Below, in pieces: positions 2,998 through 10,447 of a DNA stretch of 10,744 nucleotides. Where the stretch lies: assembly GCA_002479215.1 (NCBI GenBank), contig DLME01000085.1, positions 1 to 10,744 on the forward strand. The letters are read 5' to 3'. Both the position numbers and the translations under genes were made by a program. How positions within the stretch are numbered: position 1 is the first letter of the stretch; each line of letters begins with the position of its first letter. The DNA comes from Syntrophaceae bacterium UBA7544 (GTDB lineage: Bacteria; Desulfobacterota; Syntrophia; Syntrophales; Smithellaceae). Under the pieces are notes generated by a model. That model saw only the letters and a program-made list of their open reading frames with translations. It made no database searches and was not told the DNA's origin.

Positions 2998-3330
2998 TTG
3001 TCAGAATTGAGGATAGCGGATGGAAGGAGAGTAACGGCGAGCCATCCAGCGTCGTCACTTGGGGATATGCGGTTGCCGCCAGAACCAGCCTACTACCATC
3101 TCTTCGGCTATAGCAGGGATTTCAGTTTGATGATCAATCGAAACAATGACGGCGCCGTGAGTCTTGCCAGTGAACTCGACCCGAGAGCACAAGCGGCCAC
3201 GCGCAAGATGAACGGTTTTAATGAAGACCACGGCGGCATTTTCTCCTGCCCTGCGGTCTCCCAGGTGGTCAATACGATCTTGAGCAACAGCGAGGTACAG
3301 ACGCCATGGGTTGAAAGAAAAAACGAGTAA
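2998..3330 (+). pseudogene. C-terminal remnant of an alpha/beta hydrolase (lipase-like)
   Basis: The frame has no ATG start and no ribosome-binding site; it opens only from a TTG at 2998. From about 3060 it reads DMRLPPEPAYYHLFGYS, then NNDGAVSLASELDPRAQAA, then GFNEDHGGIFSCPAVSQVVN. This resembles the end of PGAP1-like or lipase-like alpha/beta hydrolases, which have a P-x-YY-LFGY strand, an NDGxVxLxSxLDxRAQ acid loop and a GFxEDHxxIL histidine motif. The aspartate of NDG and the histidine of EDH could be the acid and base of the triad; the nucleophile elbow (GxSxG) and the whole N-terminal two thirds are missing. Its base composition is more GC-rich than its neighbours, which suggests an acquired gene that then decayed. 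Confidence 0.5.
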
Positions 3331-3339
3331 CAATACTTT

Positions 3340-8107: not shown

Positions 8108-8141
8108 CCCTGGTTTTCCGACGGTGTCACAATATTTCAAC
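8108..8141 (-). repeat. Upstream repeat family, copy C
   Basis: CCTGGTTTTCCGACGGTGTC followed by ACAATATTTCAA matches copy B (CCTGATTTTCTGGCTGTGAC then ACAATATTTCAA), with five differences over 32 bases. It lies about 45 bases upstream of the DUF1566 start. Confidence 0.55.
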
Positions 8142-8269: not shown

Positions 8270-8467
8270 GAAATCAGCAATATTTCTTTCTTCTGGCTAA
8301 ATATGGATAATAAGGAAGTACTGATTTCGAATATATATGCAAATCCTCGCCCTTCCACAGTAAACTAAATATTGACCAATCTTGTTTTAATAGGGAGGCA
8401 ATGCGGGGGAAACCCGATGAATTGATTATGTCGACTTGGGTACCAGTGTCTTCCAATCGTGCCCGGA

Positions 8468-9763
8468 TTAGGACGAAGGACATGTGTAATAAGTAGCTGA
8501 TATAACGCTGGAGGCGCAAGCGGGGCCACAGTCATACTGAGTTGATCCTACGCCCAATATTCCATTGGCGCCCAAGCTCGGCAGATCATTTTCTTCCGGA
8601 CCGCCACTACTCGAGCAATCGCTTGGGAGCGTAGAAAAGGTGGAATCAAGAACATGAATTGGCACTGAGTGTGCGACCTCACCTGTTAGAGTGGGACCAC
8701 CTAGATACACATCGGCCGTTCGTACAGATCCCCAAATGTAGGATCCATCGGCGAATTGGACACACTCGCCAAGAGTACCACCACCGATTTGTTGTGCCGG
8801 GAGTGAAAGTGTCAGGACAGAAGACAAAAGCCTCAGTCCGGATGAACCAGTGTCCACCAACACACCGTCGATCGTCTGGCACGTGGAAGTGCCGGGAACG
8901 CAAACCGTAACGCTTGTAAACGCGCCATTCGCATAGATAGAAGGATTGCTAGATAGAGTAGCAGTCGGCCCGCCATTCACATAAATTGGCTGCACATTTG
9001 CGCCGGAGGGCGCAACAGTGTACGATAAAAACGCAAGATACGATCCATCGCCATTGGAAGTGATCGATGTGTAAACATTGCGTCCATAGAAGAAGGGCAG
9101 TCCCCAGTCAAAGAAGCTGGGGATGGGGCCTCCCAGAGTGGGAAAGACGGCATCGTTAGGAGGAGATGTATTGAACATATACACCGCGTCATCGACGCTG
9201 AAGTCCACAGTAGGGCTGGTGTCTCCCTTGTTATCCGAGATGGTTGCAGTGAGACTTTGGGAATCTGGTGCGGTGCCACTAGAAGATCCGGAGGTGCAGT
9301 AGAATCCATACGCATTAGAAGTGGCGCTGCACTGGTATATTGCTGTATCCGGGAAAAAGTAGCCGTTGGAACCGCTGTCAATAAAGCTGGGTATGCTCGG
9401 ACTACCATTAAAATTTGTGTAAATGTACCCGGACGAGTCGAGATAAAATGTGTTGGCTGTGCTATTGTTTAACACATTGTTCGATAGTGTATTGATGCCG
9501 AAGACCATATAGCCGGTCCAACTGGCAGTTGGACTAGTAACAAGCGGGAACTCAATGATGACGCCATTGTTATCCCCTGTGGAGCTAAACAGCGCCACTG
9601 GATTTTGCACTTGTTGCGTAAGAGGCACGGTTGTGCCTGTGGGGACCGTCGTGGGTGTGGAGACCGATGTACTTCCGCTACTTCCGCCACTTCCGCACCC
9701 TACAGGCAATATCCACACTCCGAACAATACTAAAATCAACATACAACTACGGACGATCTTCAT
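8468..9763 (-). CDS. DUF3443 protein with swapped (circularly permuted) halves
   Basis: The 431-residue exported protein has a signal peptide with a lipobox-like PVGC (cysteine 23) and a Gly/Ser/Thr/Pro-rich linker to about residue 45. Residues 46-247 contain QQVQNPVALF, DNNGVII, GYMVFGINTLSNN, FIDSGSNGYFFPD (128-139), FYC, and FDWGLPFFYGRNVYTSI (218-234). In DUF3443 proteins as I know them, these form the C-terminal half. Residues 255-431 contain SVTVCVPGTSTCQTIDGVLV, DTGSSGLRLL (304-313), ECVQFADG, WGSVRTADV, GANGILGVG (398-406), DCGPAC and YYTCPSS at the very end, which are normally the N-terminal half. Both D-T/S-G motifs are kept. It starts inside the stop of the DUF2844 gene (ATGA), with GAGGAGA upstream. 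Confidence 0.85.
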   Translation of the reverse strand: MKIVRSCMLILVLFGVWILPVGCGSGGSSGSTSVSTPTTVPTGTTVPLTQQVQNPVALFSSTGDNNGVIIEFPLVTSPTASWTGYMVFGINTLSNNVLNNSTANTFYLDSSGYIYTNFNGSPSIPSFIDSGSNGYFFPDTAIYQCSATSNAYGFYCTSGSSSGTAPDSQSLTATISDNKGDTSPTVDFSVDDAVYMFNTSPPNDAVFPTLGGPIPSFFDWGLPFFYGRNVYTSITSNGDGSYLAFLSYTVAPSGANVQPIYVNGGPTATLSSNPSIYANGAFTSVTVCVPGTSTCQTIDGVLVDTGSSGLRLLSSVLTLSLPAQQIGGGTLGECVQFADGSYIWGSVRTADVYLGGPTLTGEVAHSVPIHVLDSTFSTLPSDCSSSGGPEENDLPSLGANGILGVGSTQYDCGPACASSVISATYYTCPSS

Positions 9764-10257
9764 TGTATCTCCTCGATGGGGATTCCTTGTGGTACCAGTT
9801 CAGGTATGTAAGCTCGGCCAAAGTACGCCCGCATGTGCCCGCCACTTTGTACGACCAACCCAGGCTCTTGGATCAGGAGTGACCCACGGACCCGGGGGCG
9901 CTGACTTTTTAGTTTTTGAGCTGCTTGCGAAAATTGTTCAAAATACGAACCAAAGAGTTGCCGCAAATCTGGTAAAAACGGGCCTTGCCAGACTACAGCA
10001 AATATCTTTCCAGCCGGAGATAGATATTCTCTTACAACAGTGCCTGTTGGCGCCTTAATCTCCTGCACGGTGTACGCATTGGTCGGCGTGTTTCGCAGTG
10101 TGCCTTTCAGGCGAATTTGATCAGCCTGCACCGTTGTTACGTCGCCACCTAGAGATGCTGATGCCGAGGAAGGTAACACGAGCACAACGTATACGATGAC
10201 CACCAGCAGTACCCTCACTATCATAGAACGCATTGTTGTTTGAATAATCATGTTCAT
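9760..10257 (-). CDS. DUF2844 family exported protein
   Basis: The 165-residue protein has a signal peptide (hydrophobic residues about 12-29, then SSASASLGG). The family pattern follows: ASLGGDVTTVQADQIRLKG at the mature N-terminus, GTVVREYLSPAGKIFAVVWQ near 90, GPFLPDLRQLFGSYFEQF near 112, and a C-terminal GHMRAYFGRAYIPELVPQGI. DUF2844 and DUF3443 genes commonly occur side by side; here the stop TGA overlaps the next ATG as ATGA, so the two are translationally coupled and probably work together in the envelope. The role of the pair is not established. ATG at 10257 is chosen for the AAAGAG ribosome-binding site; internal ATGs lack one. Base composition is more GC-rich than in the left part of the window. 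Confidence 0.85.
   Translation of the reverse strand: MNMIIQTTMRSMIVRVLLVVIVYVVLVLPSSASASLGGDVTTVQADQIRLKGTLRNTPTNAYTVQEIKAPTGTVVREYLSPAGKIFAVVWQGPFLPDLRQLFGSYFEQFSQAAQKLKSQRPRVRGSLLIQEPGLVVQSGGHMRAYFGRAYIPELVPQGIPIEEIQ
9766..9774 (-). promoter_or_regulatory. Ribosome-binding site of the DUF3443 gene inside the DUF2844 gene
   Basis: Minus-strand CGAGGAGAT precedes the ATG of the DUF3443 gene at good spacing. It lies within the last codons of the DUF2844 gene, and with the ATGA overlap it indicates coupled translation. Confidence 0.7.
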
Positions 10258-10350: not shown

Positions 10351-10447
10351 ATTTTCTGGCTGTGACACAATATTTCAATCATGCATCCGTTGTTGCTGCT
10401 GCCGTGGATAATCTGCTGGGACTACATCATTGTTCTATATCACAATT
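10351..10447 (-). repeat. Upstream repeat family, copy B (longest)
   Basis: It joins both halves seen elsewhere. ATTTTCTGGCTGTGACACAA then TATTTCAA is shared with copy C (8108-8141), and ATATTTCAATCATGCATCCG then TACATCAT ... TATATCACAATTAT is shared with copy A (4721-4800). It lies about 95 bases upstream of the DUF2844 start. Confidence 0.55.

Follow-up and report, generated by a model that had tools for sequence, protein, structure and literature searches.

A DUF3443 protein with reversed halves in a Syntrophaceae bacterium points to a lobe-swapped pepsin-like fold

The window analysed here is a stretch of 10,744 nucleotides from Syntrophaceae bacterium UBA7544 (contig DLME01000085.1 of assembly GCA_002479215.1). 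On its minus strand, an intact open reading frame (ORF) at 8468-9763 encodes a protein of 431 amino acids that matches the Pfam family DUF3443 (PF11925) in two stretches, with a total of 341.3 bits (E 8.3e-102; curated cut-off 25). An earlier note, made from the sequence alone, had described this protein as a natural circular permutant of DUF3443 with an undamaged frame, and our analysis supports this description. The second half of the ordinary protein, its predicted C-terminal lobe (C-lobe), comes first here and the predicted N-terminal lobe (N-lobe) follows. The features are:

8468..9763, minus strand: DUF3443 gene with probably swapped lobes, 431 amino acids (ORF, Pfam, six-frame search)
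9695..9763, minus strand: signal peptide with a lipobox-like end (WILPVGC), residues 1-23 (sequence)
9620..9694, minus strand: Ser/Thr/Gly linker, residues 24-48 (sequence); low predicted local distance difference test values (pLDDT) at residues 1-30 and 32-34
9029..9619, minus strand: predicted C-lobe, the canonical second half and now first, residues 49-245 (profiles, model)
9371..9379, minus strand: putative catalytic motif DSG of the C-lobe, residues 129-131 (sequence)
9002..9028, minus strand: joint of old C-terminus and old N-terminal linker, residues 246-254 (model, sequence comparison)
8480..9001, minus strand: predicted N-lobe, the canonical first half and now second, residues 255-428 (profiles, model)
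8846..8854, minus strand: putative catalytic motif DTG of the N-lobe, residues 304-306 (sequence)
8552..8563, minus strand: hydrophobic-hydrophobic-Gly motif GILG of the N-lobe, residues 401-404 (alignment rows)
9760..10257, minus strand: DUF2844 gene directly upstream, with a 4-base ATGA overlap

A collinear reading of the protein is ruled out by the profile positions from Pfam, the six-frame search and a family hidden Markov model (HMM). The six-frame search of the genome placed positions 174-367 of the DUF3443 profile at 9029-9643 (163.7 bits) and positions 3-174 at 8462-9004 (188.2 bits); along the gene, the later part of the profile precedes the earlier one, far beyond chance. The earlier note had proposed to align the two halves separately; the six-frame search finds each of them as a strong match, in reversed order. 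With the family HMM, which has 404 columns and was built from 154 members of ordinary order, residues 42-245 correspond to columns 212-404 and residues 249-431 to columns 37-209. The domain is therefore present once and nearly whole, with each part represented once, the order reversed and the old ends joined. The motifs follow the order claimed in the earlier note, the QQVQNPVALF half preceding the CQTID/VDTGS half: QQVQNPVALF (residues 50-59), DSGSNG (129-134) and FDWGLPFFYGRNVY (218-231) in front, then NVQPI (256-260), CQTIDG (295-300), VDTGSSGLRLL (303-313), GANGILGVG (398-406) and the terminal YYTCPSS. The conserved Cys of column 211, at the cut, is missing. We class the protein as a permuted DUF3443 variant, not as an ordinary member. 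No second copy or remnant of DUF3443 was detected elsewhere in the same genome at E 0.001, and an NCBIfam search of the protein gave no match.

The positions of the cut and of the joint emerge from comparison with relatives of ordinary order. P0007, one of these, matches one half of the permuted protein at 69% and the other at 52%, in opposite order. Near ordinary relatives have C-terminal stretches such as GSYWAY or GPYWAY, and in ordinary relatives the part behind signal and linker opens with, for example, SGSNVQPITVNGGP (P0009). The permuted protein reads DGSYLAFLSYTVAPSGANVQPIYVNGGP across its joint, which lies between model strands 242-247 and 257-263; owing to its resemblance to these ends and starts, we take the joint to be an old C-terminus followed by an old N-terminal linker, without stop and signal. 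Comparison of the stretch between the halves of P0007 (YYTCTSSGCSSASVVLSQQVQNP) with the two ends of the permuted protein (domain start TVPLTQQVQNP, C-terminal end YYTCPSS) places the cut in the linker between the halves and thus, as anticipated, between two normally adjacent segments. The signal peptide was indeed kept in front: the leader MKIVRSCMLILVLFGVWILPVGC resembles that of P0007 (MKSIRICMLILVLFGVWILPVGC) and is of the same kind as in ordinary-order relatives. We presume its end, WILPVGC, to be a putative lipoprotein motif, albeit with an unusual Pro at -3, and the protein is probably secreted and lipid-anchored.

Pepsins are two-lobed and are thought to derive from a duplicated single-lobe ancestor. 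In the predicted structure of the permuted protein, residues 52-250 align with pepsin C-lobes and residues 254-427 with a pepsin-family N-lobe. The model of P0007 has the bilobal pepsin fold from end to end, whereas that of the permuted protein has it lobe by lobe. The order N-lobe before C-lobe, which characterizes pepsin-like aspartic peptidases (family A1), is not that of the permuted protein, which by prediction would work like a pepsin yet be no ordinary A1 member. Each lobe carries one Asp-Thr/Ser-Gly motif. Both Asp residues occur in all 345 ordinary alignment rows (256 proteins and 89 loci, which possibly overlap) and are kept in the permuted relatives introduced below, namely both type II proteins and the 50 of type I, one of which has a gap at one of the sites. 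Among the type I proteins, the N-lobe motif is always DTG (50/50), and the C-lobe motif is DSG in 48, DTG in one and a gap in one. On the strength of these models, the protein very probably has a lobe-swapped pepsin-like fold, C-lobe then N-lobe in a single chain. Beyond the earlier note, the exchanged units would be pepsin lobes and the cut would be their boundary.

In such a fold, a short linker would connect the old chain ends, neighbouring strands along the model chain, and the former inter-lobe linker would supply the new ends, so that the two-lobed shape, with one Asp per lobe at the cleft, should be kept. The most likely route would begin with tandem DUF3443 copies that fused in frame, losing the stop and signal between them, and end with removal of both outer halves at corresponding positions. 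Similar events would have happened more than once in the family.

Three protein searches, the third with a permuted profile, provided 308 distinct proteins from the best 120 matches of each. They comprise 256 collinear proteins, 50 of type I (permuted at the lobe boundary) and two of type II (P0005 and P0010, with columns 370-404 moved to the front), proportions that do not reflect frequency since each list is confined to its best 120 matches and the third search enriched permuted proteins. Type I consists of the window clade (P0001-P0004 and the incomplete P0006), P0096 and 44 proteins around P0233. The protein cluster of the window's gene counts eight member sequences in 10 contigs. The same reversed order is found in three other clusters with 74-80% identity, one of them on a 45-kb contig; P0096 lies on a 1.5-Mb contig and P0257 on a 780-kb contig. 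The earlier note had asked after homologues of the same order; the protein collection contains many, and there are indications of more than one origin and of a second cut site. Eight type I proteins of the P0233 group (P0264, P0266, P0268, P0272, P0273, P0280, P0283 and P0284) have 576-589 amino acids and an extra Ser/Thr-rich N-terminal stretch; a Pfam search of P0273 found DUF3443 and no other family.

The permuted order is rare in genomes. DUF3443 is a large family (at least 7,582 matches among 7,997 candidates listed), and the scanned loci of other genomes (L003-L092, including 80 named-genome loci, and L094-L122) have the ordinary order; together with the 256 collinear proteins, this agrees with the family norm given in the earlier note. 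No permuted gene was found in named genomes among the 80 loci kept of at least 527 relatives. Two Acidobacteria loci (L032, L092) contain two DUF3443 genes in tandem, the starting point for permutation by duplication. A Pfam DUF3443 search of relatives' genomes matched 10 of 197, the nine besides the window's own genome all having the ordinary order, and six genomes of the same genus (G001-G006) gave no match. Further surveys, with partly overlapping draws of genomes, used the joint-spanning alignments A5 (160 positions) and A7 (180 positions). The window's own genome gave one match over positions 1-160. Apart from it, four genomes matched in the survey of 297, all split in two pieces, and in a survey of 11 genomes every one matched, no N-lobe match beginning before position 33. 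Where 63 of 399 and 42 of 349 genomes matched, none ran through the whole model among the matches listed. Surveys with stricter E limits gave matches in 6/369 genomes at 1e-25 and in 3/297 at 1e-28. Some matches begin 5-35 positions before the joint, as a second cut site could give: those at L078, L092, L104 and L106 belong to loci of ordinary order, as does G1184, whose end is cut by the contig, and for G786, G616 and G691 the C-lobe piece follows downstream, in an equally long frame. No host genome of P0096 or of the P0233 group was identified in these surveys, the remaining early-starting matches being left unread. Five plasmid records also matched, three of them covered at 81-84% in two pieces.

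Lobe permutation apparently arose more than once in DUF3443. In a quick tree of 73 rows, the window clade (support 97) joins the pair of type II proteins (99), and the combined group (99) lies within ordinary-order proteins, in a set of 18 rows with support 99. P0096 stands elsewhere without firm support, and the P0233 group (support 100) mixes 16 type I with 13 ordinary rows; the supported branches force at least four changes of the type I label. Approximately unbiased (AU) tests rejected all 21 type I rows as one clade (log-likelihood difference 352, p-AU 1.6e-68) and the window clade with P0096 (p-AU 0.024 in the 73-row tree, 1.6e-6 in a carefully built tree of 40 rows). They also rejected a clade of the 16 type I rows in the P0233 group (p-AU 0.0024) and, in the 40-row tree, P0096 with P0233 (7e-5), a constraint that separates P0233 from its ordinary neighbour P0263 as well. 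These p values are indicative only, because the groups were named partly after seeing the tree. A position of P0096 as sister to the entire P0233 group would lower the requirement to two origins with reversions. The joints are also informative. P0001, P0004, P0005 and P0010 share the form [SP]YTxxPSGxNVQ, hinting at a single fused ancestor with two different trimmings; one trimming would have produced the lobe-swapped form and the other a form in which no more than the final ~35 residues were transferred to the front. P0096 and the P0233 group are cut between conserved Cys residues at columns 206 and 211, five columns apart; the second stays at the new front, so that a disulfide may tie the new ends. 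Of the 46 type I proteins in which column 211 holds a letter, 44 have Cys there; P0001-P0004 have no Cys in the front linker. We tentatively suggest that lobes were swapped at least three times and that a fused tandem ancestor in the window lineage was trimmed at two places, a scenario about which we remain rather doubtful. In the same scenario, with the lipid anchor now ahead of the other lobe, the protease might be oriented differently at the membrane.

Several observations weigh against the reading favoured here, a lobe-swapped pepsin-fold protein that arose by tandem fusion and trimming. The column presumed to hold the flap Tyr, assigned by sequence resemblance, has Phe in 331/345 ordinary and 50/50 type I rows, which may mean altered or weak catalysis. 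Foldseek returned only three matches to the permuted model at E <=0.001 (best 3e-4), with TM-scores by query length of 0.23-0.27 and root mean square deviations of 6.5-14.9 Å. Presumably, all three are pepsin-like chains; poor scores are expected because an aligner bound to chain order must do badly on a permutant, and they offer no independent proof. In 10 of the 44 front-half alignment rows the chain range starts before the C-lobe. The alignment behind the permuted model consists mostly of single-lobe rows, with only seven permuted proteins whole, and the placement of the lobes therefore rests on few rows. When solved structures were searched at sequence level with the family profile, three chance-level rows up to E 10 resulted, none of them a pepsin. 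No fused tandem or half-trimmed intermediate was found; duplication and loss of the outer halves, the explanation offered in the earlier note, is thus plausible but unproven and can only be inferred. PSGSNVQ, part of the shared joint, also occurs in the ordinary N-terminal linker of P0008. Finally, the lobe trees disagree on the type II proteins, which group with the window clade in the C-lobe tree (83/97) and with P0019, P0022, P0024 and P0028 in the N-lobe tree (96/99). The N-lobe nonetheless allows type II and the window group as one clade (AU p 0.19), and the disagreement fits exchange between paralogues without proving it.

The Phe at the presumed flap position would also suit a pseudoenzyme, a protein of pepsin fold that binds or has a structural role but lacks protease activity, as would the fact that our open-access literature searches retrieved no paper on DUF3443 and hence no reported activity. 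Such a protein is rather unlikely, however, as both catalytic Asp, needless for a mere scaffold, are present in all 397 rows with letters there. An aspartic peptidase of the cell envelope, perhaps acting together with the DUF2844 protein, appears reasonably likely. It is also unlikely that the lobes were once separate genes, rejoined in opposite order after fission. Being pseudo-symmetric, they could pair in trans as in homodimeric retropepsins; the lobe trees differ, as expected if the lobes come from different paralogues, and the genome surveys contain short one-lobe frames (e.g. G583, G1137, G1192). Yet the joint resembles an old C-terminus plus an old N-terminal linker, as tandem fusion predicts, and no convincing split-gene pair turned up, although no search was aimed at such pairs. 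Several reversions after a single ancient permutation, instead of several independent permutations, could account for the mixed P0233 group and for P0096 lacking a well-supported place, and change counts on the tree cannot separate gain from loss. We nevertheless regard this history as quite improbable: one type I clade, and the window clade with P0096, are rejected by the AU tests, and the window clade is nested in proteins whose ordinary order is that of pepsin. The genome is a draft of 305 contigs, which could raise the suspicion of an assembly or gene-calling artefact. The eight sequences in 10 contigs and the three distinct clusters of the same order make an assembly error very unlikely and, with the long contigs of P0096 and P0257, render an artefact close to negligible.

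The permuted protein resembles ordinary DUF3443 proteins in both halves, both Asp motifs, the signal peptide and the DUF2844 neighbour, but its halves are reversed and its new ends lie at the inter-lobe linker. In 1995, Lin, Koelsch, Loy and Tang reportedly engineered an active domain-rearranged pepsinogen with the C-lobe before the N-lobe; the lobe order would be the same, made by hand there and natural here. No natural lobe-swapped pepsin in print was found in the open-access literature searches. With family A1 (pepsin, plasmepsins, endothiapepsin and the bacterial shewasins of PMC4814920), the protein shares the predicted lobe folds, DTG/DSG and hydrophobic-hydrophobic-Gly; it differs in its reversed lobe order, Phe at the presumed flap Tyr and low sequence identity, its activity being a prediction. 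Swaposin, a permuted saposin in plant aspartic proteinases, is given in PMC3320104 as an example of permutation by duplication; both cases are natural circular permutations, but the permuted part is a helical insert there and the protease fold itself here. As the family offers both orders among close relatives, two sites of cutting and apparently more than one origin, the idea of permutation by duplication becomes testable. DUF3443, a large family, gains a predicted fold and a probable activity, and could exemplify the freedom with which evolution rearranges a two-lobed protease.

In 77 of the 80 named-genome loci, the same strand carries a DUF2844 relative no more than 600 bases upstream; in two of the other three, the DUF3443 gene starts near a contig end. 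With its overlapping DUF2844 gene, the permuted gene thus occupies the usual operon place. At 50.6%, its G+C content departs from the 39.7% of the remaining window, and this shift, together with the lack of matches in the six same-genus genomes, suggests that it may have been acquired horizontally. Elsewhere in the window, two ORFs of 110 and 92 amino acids overlap on opposite strands at 2998-3333, with no Pfam match. The element TTGAAATATTGTGNCAC occurs on the minus strand at 10362-10378 and 8124-8140, upstream of the DUF2844-DUF3443 operon and of an Lcl_C gene, each time with a similar stretch of ~45 bases behind it. Rfam gave no match at E 1 for the window and five other loci of this element. 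With up to two mismatches it has 10 sites in the genome, against one for a reversed control, and a few of them are without the longer ~45-base stretch. By eye, the frames downstream of these sites include another Lcl_C-like protein and a prepilin-like protein.
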